From NCBI GenBank assembly GCA_036939755.1, contig JALLAZ010000577.1:1-13874 (forward strand): DNA of 13,874 nucleotides. Direction: 5' to 3'. Origin of the DNA: Stephanodiscus triporus (Eukaryota > Bacillariophyta > Thalassiosirophyceae > Thalassiosirales > Thalassiosiraceae). The position numbers and the translations under genes are program-made. Below, one piece after another: positions 1 to 13,718 of the stretch (position 1 is its first letter; the number at the start of each line of letters is the position of its first letter). The notes beneath the pieces are model-generated. The model worked only from the letters and a program-made list of their open reading frames with translations. It searched no databases and was not told the origin of the DNA.

Positions 1-490
1 TTATGTCAAGTGTGATATTTTAGCTTAATCGTTTAACAAGTGTGATATTTTAACATGTGAAAATGTAATGTGTGATATTTTCCCTGGATAAAGTCACAGG
101 TGTGGTATTCTGGCAGCCGTAAGGACGATTTCTACATTCATGGGAGAAAATAAAACAACCTTGGACGAATTGATAAGTGTGACATTACACCAGGTATCAT
201 GTCACGGGCGTGATATTCTGGCAGGTGAAAACCTACAAGTGTGACATTGTACCTGGTAAAAGTGATAAGTGAGTGCCCAAAACAAAATTTCAGCGATAGG
301 CGTGGCACTGTGGCTGCATTTTACTCACTGCAGGTATAGGACGGATGGTCAAATAAAGGTGAAAAATCCGCCTGGGAAAACTCACCTGTACAGTTTCCCC
401 GTCACACCGGCTACCTGAGATTTTGGATGGAAAAAATTACCACTGAGTAATCTGCTGGCCACAATGCTTATGCAGTGACATTTTACCTAT
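1..490. repeat. Degenerate 30/31-bp tandem repeat array (minisatellite)
   Basis: A core close to GTGTGATATTTT recurs at 10, 40, 70 and 100 (exactly 30 bp apart), then in altered form at 177, 208, 239, 269 and 300 (30-31 bp apart). The second half of the unit resembles CCTGGTAAAAGTCAC and is seen best after the copies at 70, 177, 239 and near 370. Copies become less alike to the right, and the last weak match is near 473-490. The stretch 112-176 keeps little similarity. The mix of 30- and 31-bp steps and the stop codons argue against a coding repeat. The array begins at the window edge and probably continues upstream. It is not CRISPR-like, because whole units rather than spacers diverge. Confidence 0.75.
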
Positions 491-580: not shown

Positions 581-649
581 ATACTACATACTACACATAC
601 TGTTCGGGGCTCCAGACCAAGAGCTCCTGCCATTTATTTATTTTTTCAG

Positions 650-1011
650 AAAATTCTGGTGGGATTGCTCTCTCAGAAAATCAGGGTGGTGATATGGCAA
701 GACTGCGCAGCAAAAATCTCCTCACCTCACCAATTTTTGATATCACGCCCTCTCAACGCCTATACCAATCACCGCCAAAATTGTTAAGACCATGGGAGGA
801 TTTCTGAACCCTCCCACAATATTGTTTTATAAAATTCTGGCGGGATTGCTCTCTCAGAAAATCAGGGTGGTGATATGGCAAGACCGCACATCAAAAATCT
901 CACCTCACCAATTTTTGATATCACACCACCCTCTCAATGCCTATCCCAATCACCGCAAAAAATCGTCAAGACCATGGGAGGATTTCTGAACCCTCCCATG
1001 ATGGAATTGTT
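650..1011. repeat. Tandem duplication of a 181-bp unit
   Basis: Two adjacent copies start with AAAATTCTGG at 650 and at 831. They share long near-identical blocks, for example GGGATTGCTCTCTCAG followed by a GTGGTGATATGGCAAGA-type block, the ACCAATTTTTGATATCAC block, and GGGAGGATTTCTGAACC. They differ by scattered substitutions and short indels. Similarity ends near 1011 in the second copy. No open coding frame runs through both copies. The unit may be part of a longer satellite or of a non-autonomous mobile element. No target-site duplication or transposase was seen. Confidence 0.85.
973..1000. other. Perfect 9-bp inverted repeat in the second 181-bp unit
   Basis: CATGGGAGG at 973-981 pairs with CCTCCCATG at 992-1000 around a 10-nt loop. 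The first unit has the same structure at 793-816, but with only seven pairs because its right arm reads CCTCCCA followed by CAA. The hairpin sits near the right end of each unit and may mark an element end. Confidence 0.6.
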
Positions 1012-5126: not shown

Positions 5127-8100
5127 TTACATAACAGTGCATCCACAGCAACCAGAGCCACCACCGCCTGCGCTAGCTCCGCCAACATGTCCTGCCCCAG
5201 AATCATCATTTGCTGCTCCAACCTTGATAATCTCGACCAGCTTCTTCAAAGTCGTTGAATCTTGAAATAGGTACGCATCAGACATCGGTTTCACTGCATA
5301 CTTTCCCTCAAGCAAACCTTTCAGTTGGGCGAGCGTGACTGAGTCCATGAGGGAGTTGAGCGGGGCTCCATCCTTGATAGCAGTTTTATCAATGTTTGCC
5401 AGTTGAGAGATTGACTCGATGAGCAGGTTTCTAATTTCTTGCTTGTCAAGCGCTCTAATTTCTGCTGGTGTCAGGTCTTTCCTTTCCTTCGAGTTTTGCT
5501 CGGATTGTGGTGTCAAATCTTTCCTTTTCTTTGAGTTTTGCTCGGATTGCTTCCCCTCCAGAAGGTCTAGAAATCCATCGAAGTCTGAGTTTGGCGCAGA
5601 TTGATTTCCCTCCTCAATCATATCGCCATTATCTGCAACATCATAGTTCGGATTGCCATTTTCCTTGCCCTTGCCTTTAACATTTTCAATGTCATCAGAT
5701 TCTGTAAAATCTTCATCTTCCTCTTCAAAGTTAAGAGAGTCTTCAACATTACCAGTTTTATATTCTTTTCGGAAAATCTCTTGTAATTGCCTCCCCAAGA
5801 ACTCCCGCTGAGTTTTACTTCTCTGAATCTTTCCGCTGGTGGTCTTAGGGATCGTCTTGTGCTTGACCAAAATAATACATGACAGCGATACACCGTGTAC
5901 TTTGAGAATTTCGGTTCGGATTGAATCAGCTATGACTTCGCATTTTTTCACTGTTGGATGAGGCATTTTCAATTCCATTGCTAGAACAATCTCATCATAA
6001 TCTCCCATAGCGTCAGATGTGCTACCACTTGAAAAAGCCGCCGAGCATCCGGGTCTTACGTGTTCTGAAGCTAGATCTTCAGCTGTAGCCTCTATGTCCT
6101 GAGGGTAATGATTCTTCCCACCGATTATGATCAAGTCTTTGATTCGTCCACAGATGTACAACTGTCCCTCGTGCATAAAACCAAGATCTCCAGATCTGAG
6201 GTATCCATCGGATTTTATCGGCGTGTATTCCAGAAATGCATGAAAGTCGTCCTTGTTTTCTACGTCGCTTTTCCCATAATACCCGACAGCTTTGGACGGG
6301 GAGTTAATCCAAATCTCGCCGACTTTACCATCTGGCAGGGGAATTCCCTTCCCTGGGTCAACAATTTGAACATCGACATTTTGAGAAGAAGGAAAGCCAC
6401 AACCAATGAATTCAAGAACATCGTCCCTATTGGTAGATTCAGTCACTTCCACTACGATTGCCTTATTTATCTCTTCCATAGCCTTTTTTATGACGGCTAT
6501 TTTGCCCTTCCCTCCAGAGCATACGAAAACCGTGTGTTCGGCCAAACCATACGTAGGATAAATGACACCGTCGGGCAAACCAAAGGGAGAGAACGCCCTT
6601 CGGAACGCCTCCATTGATACCTCCGTTACAGGCTCGGCCCCGTTCACTATATGTTTCAGGCAACTCAACTCAAGAGATTTGACCTTCTTCCCAATTTTTC
6701 TGTTTGTCATCTCCTCGGTATTGGTGTATACGTGACTGGTAGATATCGTAGCATTCATTCCATGGATATACTCATTGGGATTGAACTTGCGCGCAGTTAG
6801 GCCAAATGCGAAGTTGGGTGCCTGAAGGTGCGTCGCGCGGTATTCCGACACCGCCTCCAGCCACGCCATGGGGCGCTGCAAGAAGGCGATGGGCGACATG
6901 TACCAACCACTCCCGCCGCAGTAAATCACGCCAATGAGCGAACCGATGAGTCCCATGTCGTGGTATTGGGGCAGCCAGGACACTACCTTGGTCGCGACGG
7001 TGGCCTTCATTTCGCTGGTAATAATGTGCAGATTGTGCGCCAGGTTGGAATGCGTTAACGTAACGCCCTTGGGAGACGACGTCGATCCGGAGGTGTATTG
7101 GATGAAAGCGACCTCGTGCGGTTCCGGATAGGTCTCGACCCTCGGATAGGACCCAATCGGCGGCGGATTCGTAAGCGGCTCCCCGTCTGTCACGACCCAG
7201 ATCAACTCCTCCGGCCAGGTCGGCAGGACTTCGCCATCGCCCCCCTCTCTGTCGGTGTACAACTTCTTGATCTTGGCCACGAACGCACTCTTCATGCTTA
7301 TCAATCGCTTCGCTTGCGCGTACTGTCCATCCGTCAGCGCCACGCGGGCCCCGCACCCGCGCGCGATGCCCACGAACGCCGACACGCTGTCCTTGCGCCC
7401 GGGGTGGGGCGGGTATACGGGCACCGCGACGAGGCCCGCGCGGATGCAGGCAAGGAACGTCAGGATGAAGTGAGGCGAGCAGGGAGGGTAGACCAGCAGC
7501 ACTCGATCTCCCCTGGCCAGGGGCGGTTGGCCTTTCTGGATGGGAACGAGGCAGTCTTTTTTCTTCGGGGCCGTGCCGTCACCGGCGTCGGGAGGCAACA
7601 AGCGAGAGGCCAGGTACTCCACCGCGGAAGACAACTCTTGATACGTAATGTGAGAGGAAACGACCATTTTGCCATAATCGCCTGATTGGAGAAATGAAAT
7701 GGCGGTTTTGTCAGGGAGGAATTCTGCGTGACGACTGAGCCTCTTCAGGAGAGAATCCCAAGAATAAGATGACCAAGTTGGGATGACAACCTCTTCGGCG
7801 GCCGGGACGACGTCCTTGACTTTAGCTTCGACAGGAGACGATTCTGAGACCTTCGAATGATCGCTTTTCTTCTGAGCATGGGATACCCCATCTTTGAGTT
7901 GCACCTCCTTTTCTCCATTGGGGTATGTAATCGTGATCTCTCGCTGGCCGCTGGGGAGGACGACGGTCGACGTCGTCTTAAAGCCCGTCACATTGTCCTT
8001 GGTCATCATCTCGCGTCGCACGCGCGGCAGCGACGGCAGGTGCTTCGTGTCGACTTCCTCGGTCGTTACCTTCTCCATTGTTTCTTCGTCGATTTTGGTG

Positions 8101-8225
8101 GTGAAAACAGTGGTGATGACGGTGCGAGTGCCGTCGGCGTTCGTGATGTTGCGTATTTTCGTTTTCTTTTTCCAGGCTCCAGGTCCCCCAGAAGAAAGGG
8201 CCCCGGGATCTTTTTCGTCGACCAT
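5127..8225 (-). CDS. Fatty acyl-AMP ligase fused to an acyl carrier protein, with a possible CaaX terminus
   Basis: The protein has 1032 residues and no intron. Residues 1 to about 145 are a Thr/Val/Lys-rich extension. Residues about 155-820 form the adenylation domain: P-loop YTSGSTSSPKGV at 377-388, WLPQYHDMGLIG at 418-429 (typical of FAALs), HIVNGAEPV at 525-533, YGLAEHT at 559-565, SGDLG at 678-682, GRIKDLII from 693, and the C-terminal lysine at about 799 in TTSGKIQR. An acidic, Asn-rich linker (about 825-920) carries a duplicated 14-residue unit. A carrier domain follows at about 925-1002, with the phosphopantetheine serine at S962 in LMDSV. A Gly/Ser-rich tail ends in CCGCTVM. Known FAALs make acyl-adenylates and pass the acyl group to a carrier protein; here the carrier is in cis. 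The CTVM end fits a CaaX box, which would put the protein on membranes (inference). No PKS or NRPS lies nearby. The start was chosen as the first ATG, and the family assignment is firm. Confidence 0.93.
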   Translation of the reverse strand: MVDEKDPGALSSGGPGAWKKKTKIRNITNADGTRTVITTVFTTKIDEETMEKVTTEEVDTKHLPSLPRVRREMMTKDNVTGFKTTSTVVLPSGQREITITYPNGEKEVQLKDGVSHAQKKSDHSKVSESSPVEAKVKDVVPAAEEVVIPTWSSYSWDSLLKRLSRHAEFLPDKTAISFLQSGDYGKMVVSSHITYQELSSAVEYLASRLLPPDAGDGTAPKKKDCLVPIQKGQPPLARGDRVLLVYPPCSPHFILTFLACIRAGLVAVPVYPPHPGRKDSVSAFVGIARGCGARVALTDGQYAQAKRLISMKSAFVAKIKKLYTDREGGDGEVLPTWPEELIWVVTDGEPLTNPPPIGSYPRVETYPEPHEVAFIQYTSGSTSSPKGVTLTHSNLAHNLHIITSEMKATVATKVVSWLPQYHDMGLIGSLIGVIYCGGSGWYMSPIAFLQRPMAWLEAVSEYRATHLQAPNFAFGLTARKFNPNEYIHGMNATISTSHVYTNTEEMTNRKIGKKVKSLELSCLKHIVNGAEPVTEVSMEAFRRAFSPFGLPDGVIYPTYGLAEHTVFVCSGGKGKIAVIKKAMEEINKAIVVEVTESTNRDDVLEFIGCGFPSSQNVDVQIVDPGKGIPLPDGKVGEIWINSPSKAVGYYGKSDVENKDDFHAFLEYTPIKSDGYLRSGDLGFMHEGQLYICGRIKDLIIIGGKNHYPQDIEATAEDLASEHVRPGCSAAFSSGSTSDAMGDYDEIVLAMELKMPHPTVKKCEVIADSIRTEILKVHGVSLSCIILVKHKTIPKTTSGKIQRSKTQREFLGRQLQEIFRKEYKTGNVEDSLNFEEEDEDFTESDDIENVKGKGKENGNPNYDVADNGDMIEEGNQSAPNSDFDGFLDLLEGKQSEQNSKKRKDLTPQSEQNSKERKDLTPAEIRALDKQEIRNLLIESISQLANIDKTAIKDGAPLNSLMDSVTLAQLKGLLEGKYAVKPMSDAYLFQDSTTLKKLVEIIKVGAANDDSGAGHVGGASAGGGGSGCCGCTVM
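5466..5549 (-). repeat. 42-bp in-frame tandem duplication in the FAAL linker
   Basis: Two 42-bp units (5466-5507 and 5508-5549) encode QSEQNSKERKDLTP and QSEQNSKKRKDLTP, residues 907-920 and 893-906. They differ at four bases, all transitions, with G or C in the left unit and A or T in the right. Only one difference changes an amino acid (Lys to Glu). The duplication lengthens the flexible linker between the adenylation and carrier domains. Confidence 0.9.
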
Positions 8226-8495
8226 GATGCGGGTGGCTAGTACTGTTGACGCAGGTTTGCTGATGAGGGCGGAGGGGGTGACGCCACTAGATGAAGCGGG
8301 CGGGGCAGCGGATGATGATGAATGAGTTTGTGGGAGAGATCACAATTGCCAACCCCGACCGAAAGCCCCGGCCCGCTATGGTACGCTTGAAGTTGGGCTA
8401 CTCTATTATTTTCTACTACTCTTCTAGTTGTCGCAGCGTCATAAAATCCGCACAAGAGGGCAGTGAGTAGTGCATGCACTGTATCCGAATGCGTC
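8226..8495. promoter_or_regulatory. Shared divergent promoter region of FAAL and FAH-family genes
   Basis: Only 270 bp separate the FAAL start (minus) from the proposed start of the FAH-family gene (plus), so both promoters and 5' untranslated regions must fit here unless one gene has an unseen upstream exon. TGACGC occurs at 8247-8252 and 8279-8284, and its complement GCGTCA at 8491-8496. These resemble half-sites of bZIP factors (TGACG core), but such short words also occur by chance. No clear TATA box was found for either side. Confidence 0.5.
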
Positions 8496-9323
8496 ATGAT
8501 GATCAAGTCATTGTTCAATGTAACGCGCCCGACCGTCCCAATATTCGTACGTAGCTCCGGGTCCGGCTTCGTCGCCGCTTGCGATTGTGACGCCGCCAGC
8601 GACGTCGATCGCGCAGCCGACGGCGTCGTCGCGCGCTGGGCGAGGAGCGACCTCGAGTTCCCCGTGCGGCGCGTCTACTGCGTGGGACGGAATTATCGGG
8701 AACACGCGATCGAGATGGGGGGCGACCCGGACATCGTCGAGACGCCCTTCTTCTTCCAGAAGCCCGCCGACGCCGTCGTGGTCTGCGACCCAACCGCGAC
8801 GACGGCGACTACGACTGCTTGTCGTGTGCCCTATCCGCCCATGACGTCGTCGCTGCATCACGAGGGCGAGCTGATAGTCGTGATCGGATCGGACGGCCTG
8901 CGCGTGCGGGTCGAGGACGCCATGGACATGGTCTACGGCTATGCCGTCGGATGCGACCTGACACGGAGGGACTTACAGGACGAGGCCAAGCGCGGGGGCA
9001 GGCCGTGGGACGCCGCCAAGGGATTCGATCACGGCTGTCCGATGTCCCCCATCGTTCCGAAACGCGACTTCGAGCCGTCCGAAGATACGAGGATCGAGTT
9101 GACTGTCAACAACTCGCCGCGACAGGCGTCGACGTTGGGGAGGATGATACACTCCGTGCCGGAAATCGTGAGCAATCTGTCGCATTTCTTCGCGCTGCGG
9201 CGGGGCGATCTGATCCTTACCGGAACTCCGGCGGGGGTTTCACATTTGTCCGTCGGGGATGCCGTTTCGATTACGTGCGGTGACTTGATACCGTGTCGAT
9301 TCGTGGTAGGAGAACCCGAGTAA
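8496..9323 (+). CDS. Fumarylacetoacetate hydrolase family protein (FAHD1-like acylpyruvase)
   Basis: From the ATG at 8496 the protein has 275 residues. The frame opens further upstream only through a GTG at 8463, which is unlikely in a nuclear gene, and a second ATG follows at 8499. Family motifs in order are GRNYREH (about 64-70), PFFFQKP, LHHEGEL with the metal-ligand pair E123 and E125, GCDLTRRD with the third ligand D154, and PWDAAKGFD with K175. The C-terminal LILTGTPAG ends at 247. These are the conserved features of the FAH C-terminal domain; FAHD1-type members act on acylpyruvates or oxaloacetate with Mg2+ or Mn2+, usually in mitochondria. The roughly 50-residue N-terminal extension relative to the typical 220-residue FAHD1 could be a targeting sequence, but I cannot confirm that. 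The substrate is uncertain within this family. The gene diverges from the FAAL gene. Confidence 0.9.
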
Positions 9324-9964: not shown

Positions 9965-11273
9965 TCATACTATTCCCTGCTGTCCCTGCCCGCCGTTCGA
10001 CGCCGCCTGATCCATGAACTGCTGCTCCCTCAGCAGTCGTTGCGGAGTGCTGTAACCCATGACGCGATCGTAATCGTCGAAGATCGGGTCCACGGGGAAC
10101 GGCCATGTCAGGATCCCCGCTATCCCGAAGACGTCCTTGAGCGCTATGGGCTCCTCGTCGCTCTGGCTCATGGTGTTCGTCGCCTTCTTCTTGAGCCTGT
10201 CGATCGTGCCGATGCCCGTCATCAGACCGTAGGTGACGTTCATGAGCATCGACGACGTGAAGAGGAAGGCGCCGATGCACAGGAACGTCATGGCGCGGAC
10301 GAGGTGGATCACCACCACGTGGAACGTGCATCCCTCGTCGGCGCAGAAGAAGTAATTCCAACCGAACAGGACCAGGGAGTACGACGCGCACGTCCAGGTG
10401 TATATCAAGAAAAGGATGAAATGTTTCAGATTCGCCGCGCCGACGCAATTGTTCATCTATCCCCACCAAAAAAAACGGCGTGGGGGCGCGAGCGCAAATA
10501 ATTAGCGAATGGACGGTTGTTGTTAGGAGAGAATCCGAAAGAAAAATAATTGAAAGACAACTCAAACCCGAAAACGAATAAACAAAAACACGGGGCTAAT
10601 AGCTCACCCACGGACAGTGATGGTCCATCCTGCTCACGCATCGGTTGCATATGCGACAGTGGTGGCTCATGGGCGGCTTGAATGTCTGACACTGTCCGCA
10701 CATGCTGTGACTGGGATTCTCCCTCCGTTGCTCCTCCTGCGGGACCGCCGCCCTCGGCACGGATCCCGGATCGGTGAGGGACGTCTTGGCGTGGCAAGCC
10801 AAAGCCATCGCGCACAGGAGGGTGTATATCATCCCGAGGACGGGGGGGAATCCCTTGGTTATGGTCAACAGGGTGACGGTGACGGCCGAGTAGGTCATGA
10901 GGAGCCAAACGAGCGTGGCCATGATGGACCCCGCCTGATCGCCGGAATTCATCCATATCCCGTTCTCCTCGCCTGTACCGAGGGAGAAGGACCACGGCTC
11001 GTCGTTGTGGATGTCGATGTAATACTCGCCGGGGGAGCGTATGCGGGGCATCATCGTCGTCGTAGTCGTCGTCGTCGTCCCCCCCCCTCCCCCGGCGTGC
11101 CACGGATCCTTGGCGGCGGTCTGGCAGACTCTCGCCTCGAGGTATTCCGACGAGTCTATTTGGCACCCGCACAATGCGTCGAGGCACGTCCGCAACAGGG
11201 GACGGCCGGCCCCGGAGTTGGTCGCGGACGACGAGCTGCTCGTCCCCATGTCCTTCTTGCTTATCGTGACCAT
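9965..11273 (-). CDS. DHHC-type protein S-palmitoyltransferase, two exons
   Basis: Exon 1 is 11273-10608 (222 codons) and exon 2 is 10456-9965 (163 codons plus stop), giving 385 residues. The start ATG sits in GCCGCCATGG, a strong Kozak context. The enzyme moves palmitate from acyl-CoA to cysteines of membrane-associated proteins through an acyl-enzyme on the DHHC cysteine. Two hydrophobic spans lie at about 115-138 and 142-160. A TDPG motif follows at 167-170, then the cysteine-rich domain from C192 ([18 protein letters not shown]) to D217-H218-H219-C220. Splicing gives DHHCPW joined to MNNCVG, restoring the conserved NNCVG. Two more hydrophobic spans follow in exon 2. The TTxE motif expected after the fourth span is reduced to GTID. 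The N-terminus is low-complexity, with Ser, Gly and Thr runs. Substrates are unknown. Confidence 0.92.
10457..10607 (-). other. 151-bp intron of the DHHC gene
   Basis: The donor is TGG|GTGAGC and the acceptor GGGGATAG|ATG, with a run of eight T about 12 bases before the acceptor AG. Unspliced, exon 1 reads into a TAG nine bases beyond the donor. Splicing in phase 0 joins the active-site DHHCPW directly to NNCVG, the invariant continuation of the family, which makes the boundary secure without RNA data. Confidence 0.88.
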
Positions 11274-12407: not shown

Positions 12408-13193
12408 ATGGCAGGGCCGAAACTCGGCCCGCGCCCGCCCGACTTCGACGAGGCGCGCGTACGACGATCGCCCACCTTCCGCAGGTGGCTCCTGCTTCCC
12501 CCCGGCTCCGAGCTCGTTTACGCGTGTCGGACGTTCGTCAAAGGCGGGATCGACGACGAGGAGAGGCTCATGCGTCGGATCATGATCGCGCGCAGGGCCA
12601 ACCTCAGGGATCACGACGTGCTCGTTAGGGCGAGGGAGGAGGTCGATGACGACGGTGTGGATGTGGCGATGGGGGGGGGGACGATGGCGGGATCGACACG
12701 TCGACGACGGAGCGGCGCCGGCGCGACGACTACGACTGCGACTGCGACTGCGCAATCGACTACGACCGGGGGGGCGGGGGATGACGACGTCGACGACGGA
12801 TCGCCGTCCCCGTCCACCGCGACCGTCGTCGCACCCGGCCCGCGTCGTACACTCCCCGGGATGGCGGGAGGACGAGTCGGGCCCCGTTCCGACGAGGACG
12901 TATTGCGCGAGATGGACGTGCACGCCGTGGAGAGTACGAGGTCGTACCGACGTTGGACGGCGTTGGCCGACGGCGAGCAATTCGCGTACAACCAGACGTA
13001 CGTCAAGGGTCGGGACGGACACGATTGGCTCTTGAGGAAGAACATATGGAGGAGGATGAGGTACAGGCGTATGAATCGGGCTAGGGTCGAGAGTATGAGG
13101 GCACGGCGAGGGACGACGACGACGACGACGATGACGACGACGGCGATGAGGGCGGGATTGAGACGGGAGGGACGACGGGGGGAGGAGGAGGAG

Positions 13194-13224
<31 letters not shown>

Positions 13225-13718
13225 GAGGCCGACCCCTCGTAGACTCCAGGGCCGCGGAGGACGCCGCCGCCGCGGCGGCGGCGGGCGCGCTGGCGTCGAA
13301 CCCGTCCTTCGACGGCCTCGGCGTGGTCGACGCCGACGCCGTTGCGGCGCTGGGGGGTGGAGCGGCGGCATCGGCGGAATCGGGGGTGGGCAGTGACGAC
13401 GATCATCATCATCATCATCACGCGTCGTCGTCGTCGTCGAGCGCCCTCTCGGGCGCGCTCGACGCGGCGGCGCGCCTCGCGGCGGCGGTCTCGGCGGCGG
13501 CGGCGGCGGTCGGGGCTGGGACGACGACGGACGACGGGGAGGCGGAAGCGGCGATGGCGATGGACGACGGCGGCGACGAAGAAGACGACGACGATGACGG
13601 CGAAGGGGAGGACGAAGACGCGGACGGCACGCCGACGGACGTCGGATCGGGGGTGGTCGGCGGCATCGGTGACGACGACGACGATGCGAGGGATGTGTCC
13701 GTGATATTCGCGGTGTAG
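12408..13718 (+). CDS. Unrecognised 436-residue protein with a duplicated basic motif and acidic Ala-rich tail
   Basis: I do not recognise the family. Two related segments of about 48 residues occur at 21-67 and 177-224. Shared positions are Arg-Arg-Trp (25-27 and 181-183), a Glu eight or seven residues later, then Thr-[Phe/Tyr]-Val-Lys-Gly (42-46 and 197-201), a Leu nine residues beyond that Lys, an Ile thirteen beyond it, and an Arg-rich end. The two are separated by a Thr/Gly/Asp-rich spacer. After residue 235 the protein is low-complexity: Thr run, Asp9 at 264-272, Ala7, His6 at 333-338, Ser runs and a final Asp/Glu-rich region, ending in DVSVIFAV. No signal peptide or membrane span is seen. 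The basic motif plus acidic tail could suit a nuclear protein, but that is a guess. Support for a real gene comes from the repeated conserved motif in this frame, the length and the ATG start. The sequence is very GC-rich, so long frames also open on the other strand. Confidence 0.72.

Follow-up and report, generated by a model that had tools for sequence, protein, structure and literature searches.

A conserved CaaX-type tail on a diatom FAAL–acyl carrier protein fusion suggests a prenylated, membrane-tethered acyl donor

The window, a 13,874-nucleotide stretch of Stephanodiscus triporus DNA (contig JALLAZ010000577.1, which is contig C572 of the 1324 contigs in the 21.65 Mb assembly), carries on its reverse strand a gene in which a fatty acyl-AMP ligase (FAAL) domain is followed by an acyl carrier protein (ACP) domain and a cysteine-containing C-terminal tail (Table 1). 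Direct codon reading and translation yield 1032 uninterrupted codons from an ATG at position 8225 to a TAA at 5127–5129; the protein ends in GCCGCTVM, preceded by a Gly/Ala/Ser-rich stretch, which confirms the ending Cys-Cys-Gly-Cys-Thr-Val-Met claimed in an earlier note on this DNA. No second full-length match was found in the assembly. Two further matches are weak: one is read here as another AMP-binding protein, bearing a carrier-like segment, and one as an acyl-CoA-synthetase-like frame. A bacterial contaminant is ruled out, as the closest relatives that carry an organism name come from diatoms, the same contig bears a DHHC gene split into two exons, and the best-segment identity to bacterial FAALs is 31–38%. 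A chance ending or a wrong frame is ruled out by the homologues and by transcript-named records.

Table 1. Features of the window, with positions counted from its first nucleotide
Feature	Position	Strand	Basis or remark
FAAL-ACP-CaaX gene	5127..8225	−	single 1032-aa open frame
N-terminal beta-sheet domain	7881..8180	−	residues about 16–115; pLDDT 81–94 over 21–110
FAAL domain	5781..7778	−	residues about 150–815; profiles, PDB sequence search, Foldseek
FAAL-ACP linker, disordered	5481..5735	−	residues about 831–915; pLDDT <50, blocks 30–42
Acyl carrier protein domain	5220..5468	−	residues about 920–1002; confident helices in model
Ser962, predicted 4'-phosphopantetheine site in L-M-D-S-V	5340..5342	−	Asp961-Ser962 in 117/117 rows
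Flexible Gly/Ala/Ser-rich spacer, ACP to tail	5151..5219	−	pLDDT <50 at 1008–1032; composition
Cys1026-Cys1027, candidate S-acylation site	5145..5150	−	aligns with Cys of GCPPG in other diatoms
Cys1026	5148–5150	−	codon reading
Cys1027	5145–5147	−	codon reading
Gly1028	5142–5144	−	codon reading
CaaX box, Cys1029-Thr-Val-Met1032	5130..5141	−	Cys at −4 in 168/168 complete tails
Cys1029	5139–5141	−	codon reading
Thr1030	5136–5138	−	codon reading
Val1031	5133–5135	−	codon reading
Met1032	5130–5132	−	codon reading
Fumarylacetoacetate hydrolase family gene, divergent from FAAL gene	8463–9323	+	PF01557 E 6e-52
DHHC protein S-acyltransferase gene, two exons	9965–10456 and 10596–11273	−	
436-aa low-complexity frame	12408–13718	+	two copies of [ST]-x-x-[YF]-R-R-W ... 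V-K-G motif
Five 37-nt GTGTGATATT-type repeats, preceding the direct repeat	6–271		
Direct repeat of about 180 bp, two copies	639–998		segments 91–97% identical

The DHHC gene shares its strand with the FAAL gene and lies approximately 1.7 kb upstream of it, beyond an intervening gene. As the assembly holds 13 DHHC matches on 9 contigs, the window's included, this nearness may be due to chance, and no link between the two genes is claimed. The 436-residue low-complexity frame near the end of the window gave no Pfam match.

The FAAL region of the window protein matches the AMP-binding profile PF00501 (E 8e-55) and, above its cut-off, the DIP2-like C-terminal subdomain PF23024 (E 1e-9). The best NCBIfam matches are FAAL models, all far under their cut-offs. 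The protein resembles FAALs more than it does acyl-CoA ligases: Foldseek ranks 1–29 are all FAAL structures, led by the Synechococcus olefin synthase FAAL, FadD32, and the Legionella FAAL, while the first plant CoA-ligase-type entry (5ie2) appears at rank 44, and the best 14 of the 141 PDB sequences matched by phmmer are FAALs, some of which are entered under the names 'acyl-CoA synthase' or 'polyketide synthase'. Residues 568–615, a candidate for the FAAL-specific insertion, can be aligned gap-free with the FAAL of the olefin synthase, but at low similarity. The protein has an adenylate-forming FAAL fold, in which the catalytic residue Lys799 is conserved in 117/117 aligned rows, and the catalytic-Lys motif and those that we take to be A3, A5, and A8 are near-invariant in the same alignment.

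The AlphaFold2 model, built from 93 aligned proteins (mean pLDDT 79.0), begins with a beta domain at the N-terminus, followed by the FAAL; 85 disordered residues (831–915) then link the FAAL to the ACP, whose helices, within about 920–1002, are modelled at pLDDT 87–97, and the tail (1008–1032) is again disordered. The ACP-type profile PF23297 matches residues 927–1004 (E 2e-4) under its curated cut-off, as do the ACP profiles in every protein where they are listed; the domain is nevertheless modelled as a helical bundle, and it carries the Asp-Ser of a predicted phosphopantetheine site. The N-terminal beta-sheet domain is missing from most relatives. A weak match to Tcp10_C (PF07202, presumably of the centriolar G-box type) lies at residues 100–113 (E 9e-5, under the cut-off), and the N-terminal motif is found in 27 of 172 related proteins, 26 of which have the CCG form of the tail, the remaining one being cut off before its tail. 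When folded alone, the N-terminal domain gave a poor model (pLDDT 63), and its comparison with PDB sequences returned nothing convincing.

A transmembrane anchor was considered and rejected. The most hydrophobic 19-residue stretch of the window protein scores 2.0, above the customary transmembrane hydropathy cut-off of 1.6, and lies at residues 253–271, where it overlaps a modelled helix (251–262) and strand (266–270) of the folded FAAL core, so that no separate membrane segment is evident. Across the seven proteins scanned, the top 19-residue mean hydropathy ranges from 2.0 to 2.5, in every case within the FAAL core. Since 2.0 exceeds 1.6, the case against a membrane segment at 253–271 is made by the predicted structure only.

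Conservation of the C-terminal tail was assessed in 172 distinct proteins, the window protein included, which were drawn from the best 120 of 5570 matches in a search with the window protein and the best 120 of 7994 matches in a second search with a member near the base of the larger branch of the family (described below). A cysteine occupies position −4 in 117 of the 120 proteins from the first search, in all 52 new proteins from the second, and hence in 169 of the 172. The three exceptions are two models that end before the ACP (P0045 and P0050) and a fused Nitzschia model (P0071). P0069 stops inside the tail, at CPPG, and is left out of the complete tails because its −4 cysteine is the upstream one. 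In P0071, the FAAL-ACP breaks off at GALG, where the GCPPG tail should begin, and continues into an acyl-CoA oxidase; this may be a real fusion that hints at a partner enzyme or a gene-model join of neighbours, and is taken as a lead only.

The 168 complete tails all conform to C-x-[IV]-[MQLSI], with the cysteine at −4, an aliphatic a2 residue, and an X residue within the range of farnesyltransferase and GGTase-I; more distant relatives, ranked beyond the best 120 of either search, may lack the box. The earlier note had expected a terminal Cys-x-x-Met in homologues; the CaaX cysteine is indeed kept in every complete tail, while Met at X is found in 79 of the 168, the others having Gln (49), Leu (32), Ser (7), or Ile (1). 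Given this variation at X, some of the proteins resemble substrates of GGTase-I. A second cysteine, followed by [PC][PGA], lies 7–12 residues from the end in 168/168, column 1026 is Cys in 117/117 aligned rows, and the last 12 residues contain two cysteines in 59 tails, three in 108, and four in one. In contrast to the fixed cysteine at −4, the spacer varies freely, with cysteine at 0.0015 per residue between −60 and −21. Greedy clustering at 60% identity reduces the 168 proteins with complete tails, among which pairwise identities reach down to 39%, to 29 clusters, and the box is present in all 29. A different 3' end in transcripts was also looked for: MMETSP/CAMPEP transcript names, none known to be from the window's organism, are carried by 12 of the 172 records, and the box is present in 11/11 of those with a complete tail.

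The extended prenylation motif of Maurer-Stroh and Eisenhaber includes a small, flexible, preferably hydrophilic spacer of about 11 residues (PMC1175975). The tail fits this motif: across the family, the 11 residues upstream of the box cysteine are mainly G, P, C, V, and A, which are small but not very hydrophilic, and in the model of the window protein this stretch is disordered. From the composition of the family, a C-x-[IV]-[MQLSI] terminus is expected at 6e-4, as against 168/168 observed, a comparison that is not a probability because the tails are related sequences. The control set comprised 81 FAAL loci, 80 from prokaryote genomes and one from IMG/VR; 56 of these gave a parsable FAAL frame and 25 were unparsed. 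Cysteine at −4 was found in 0/56 parsed prokaryotic or viral frames, and likewise in none of the 16 frames retained under stricter parsing.

A rapid tree, computed under LG+G4 with SH-aLRT as its sole measure of support, was built from 117 rows of the first search, that is, the 120 less P0045, P0050, and P0071, with the tail columns excluded. The CCG tail form ending in Met occurs in 40 rows, including the window's, which form one supported branch (100*). GCPPG-type tails make up a sister branch of 8 rows and a larger branch of 69, apart from a single row (P0084) that has GCPAHF. The named members of the CCG branch and its sister are Thalassiosira, Conticribra, and Cyclotella, and those of the larger branch include Nitzschia, Pseudo-nitzschia, Amphora, and Mayamaea; as most rows are without an organism name, calling those rows diatom follows from their position in the tree. 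The X residue changes at least 10 times on this tree, and the class switches at least 8 times between farnesyl-type (M, Q, S) and geranylgeranyl-type (L), an assignment that is not absolute, as GGT1 can also accept Met, and FT some Leu (PMC1175975). As the cysteine remains constant while X and class switch, it is the property that appears to be kept rather than the exact string.

The second search, which was aimed at non-diatom eukaryotes from the basal query, returned the same family among its best 120 of 7994 matches. A EukProt record labelled Alexandrium tamarense (P0044) falls in a branch with Conticribra and Cyclotella, adjoining P0049. It was rejected as evidence for a dinoflagellate member, since it is placed beside diatom-type sequences and is probably a contamination or a mislabel.

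Part of the modification machinery was found in the same assembly. PF00432 matches occur on one contig only (C403), and the gene there is of the GGTase-I beta type, with a phmmer E value of 2e-41 to GGTase-I beta versus 2e-15 to farnesyltransferase beta. An ICMT and several PPTase-like frames were also found, in addition to the DHHC acyltransferases. In these profile searches of the fragmented assembly, read exon by exon, the PF00432 matches did not include farnesyltransferase beta, and neither the PPTA alpha subunit nor an Rce1-like protease gave a match. Rab GGTase beta, which eukaryotes need, was not seen among the assembly matches either, and the absences are therefore read as incompleteness or intron splitting. 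The missing prenylation enzymes are weak counter-evidence, yet the enzyme expected for a Met-ending tail is among those not seen.

Taken together, these observations make it likely that the protein is a FAAL-ACP tethered to a membrane by prenylation, and probably by S-acylation as well, and that it serves as an acyl-ACP donor to a membrane lipid enzyme. Prenylation and membrane location are predictions from the tail, and the proposed anchor is strongly supported by its conservation. The conserved residues suggest that the FAAL would activate a fatty acid and transfer it to the fused ACP. In the proposed mechanism, the cytosolic FAAL would adenylate a fatty acid with ATP, and the acyl group would pass to the phosphopantetheine arm on Ser962 of its own ACP. 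A cytosolic CaaX prenyltransferase would prenylate Cys1029 in the disordered tail, with mainly farnesyl expected on proteins ending in M, Q, or S and mainly geranylgeranyl on those ending in L, after which the -aaX residues would be removed and the cysteine methylated. The neighbouring cysteines (Cys1026/1027, or the GCPPG cysteine in other diatoms) would probably be S-acylated as a second anchor. The flexible leash would thus hold the acyl-ACP donor at the cytosolic face of the membrane, from where acyl groups may be handed to a membrane lipid enzyme, bypassing acyl-CoA and type I PKS.

The earlier note had left the acceptor open between lipid and polyketide synthesis, and the polyketide option has become the less likely of the two. 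A survey of type I PKS and NRPS (PMC4661987) gives no type I PKS entry for Fragilariopsis cylindrus, Phaeodactylum tricornutum, Pseudo-nitzschia multiseries, Thalassiosira oceanica, or T. pseudonana, and its Table 1 gives one NRPS for T. oceanica. The use of the FAAL-ACP is probably PKS-independent on the evidence of these five diatoms, and PKS-independent use is considered more likely here, with the membrane anchor fitting a lipid acceptor. It could still be argued that the tail is prenylated and that the protein is a classical loader in the making of a polyketide or a non-ribosomal peptide: the bacterial FAAL-ACP didomains HapA and NocH load PKS (PMC11837247), the nearest solved FAAL belongs to an olefin-synthase PKS, and T. 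oceanica does have the one NRPS. This explanation appears unlikely given the survey's lack of type I PKS entries, the oddity that a conserved lipid anchor would present on a soluble assembly line, and the state of the ketosynthase loci in the window's own assembly: the PF00109 profile finds at least three, of which one is a single frame (562 aa), another is split into two pieces of the same contig, and the third gave no recoverable frame.

The DIP2 proteins suggest another role, in which the anchored protein would regulate diacylglycerol pools as DIP2 does, instead of supplying acyl-ACP to a synthase. The match of the C-terminal FAAL subdomain to PF23024 speaks for this role, as does the control of diacylglycerol by DIP2 in yeast, for which the adenylation residues are required (PMC9342972). 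Nevertheless, DIP2 is described as a DMAP1-binding domain followed by two FAAL-like domains (PMC8460268), whereas the window protein has one FAAL domain and an ACP in which the attachment serine is conserved, and a Pfam search at E 0.01 gave no match to a DMAP1-binding domain in it. Membership of DIP2 was rejected on these grounds, and the regulator role is held to be improbable. A quite different explanation takes the tail cysteines as a metal or redox/disulfide site, or as an acyl-relay thiol, and not as a lipidation signal; each of the 168 complete tails has two to four cysteines among its final 12 residues, which would suit such a site. The −4 cysteine keeps its place throughout the complete tails, whereas the upstream cysteine is found anywhere from 7 to 12 residues from the end, and a metal site would not need the restriction of −2 to I/V and of −1 to M/Q/L/S/I, so this explanation is very unlikely.

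FAALs are known from bacterial PKS and NRPS starters, and FAAL-like domains from DIP2 of fungi and animals. The dually lipidated GTPases H-Ras and Rac1 have, as here, a CaaX cysteine and at least one cysteine a few residues upstream, and the GCPPG that precedes the box in other diatom proteins is one that we take to resemble the Rac1 C-terminus; their fold is unrelated, and in the FAAL-ACP the anchor is on a metabolic enzyme. Another prenylated protein, ALDH3B2, is a mouse aldehyde dehydrogenase without a carrier domain. It acts in lipid metabolism and its prenylation is required for lipid-droplet localisation, providing a precedent for prenylated lipid enzymes (PMC7168155). In bacterial FAAL-ACP didomains (HapA, NocH, AmbG, and the loading module of the cyanobacterial olefin synthase), the FAAL is likewise followed by a fused ACP (PMC11837247), and the solved structure nearest to the window protein is that of the Synechococcus olefin synthase FAAL; the bacterial didomains serve PKS assembly lines, and none of the 56 prokaryotic or viral FAAL frames has the −4 cysteine, whereas the diatom proteins end in a flexible spacer and a CaaX box. 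DIP2/CPS1 is eukaryotic and FAAL-derived, and has the PF23024-type C-terminal subdomain in common with the window protein; unlike the latter, DIP2 combines a DMAP1-binding domain with tandem FAAL-like domains, and the passages on DIP2 in the two accounts mention neither an ACP nor a CaaX box (PMC8460268, PMC9342972). PKS-independent roles have already been suggested for FAAL-like domains in unusual architectures (PMC8460268). No description of a prenylated FAAL was found in the open-licence PMC literature, an absence that is provisional.

More tentatively, and with some doubt, diatoms may possess a CoA-independent acyl route at the cytosolic membrane face, in which a doubly lipidated FAAL-ACP would catch free fatty acids as they leave the bilayer and present them as acyl-ACP to membrane acyltransferases or oxidases, independently of PKS, and in which the choice of prenyl group would have switched repeatedly between lineages. 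In a bolder form of this proposal, the FAAL-ACP would load the very fatty acid that S-acylates its own tail. If the membrane-tethered donor is real, it would point to a hitherto undescribed way in which major marine primary producers handle fatty acids, and would offer an acyl-ACP whose tethering to a membrane can be tested directly.
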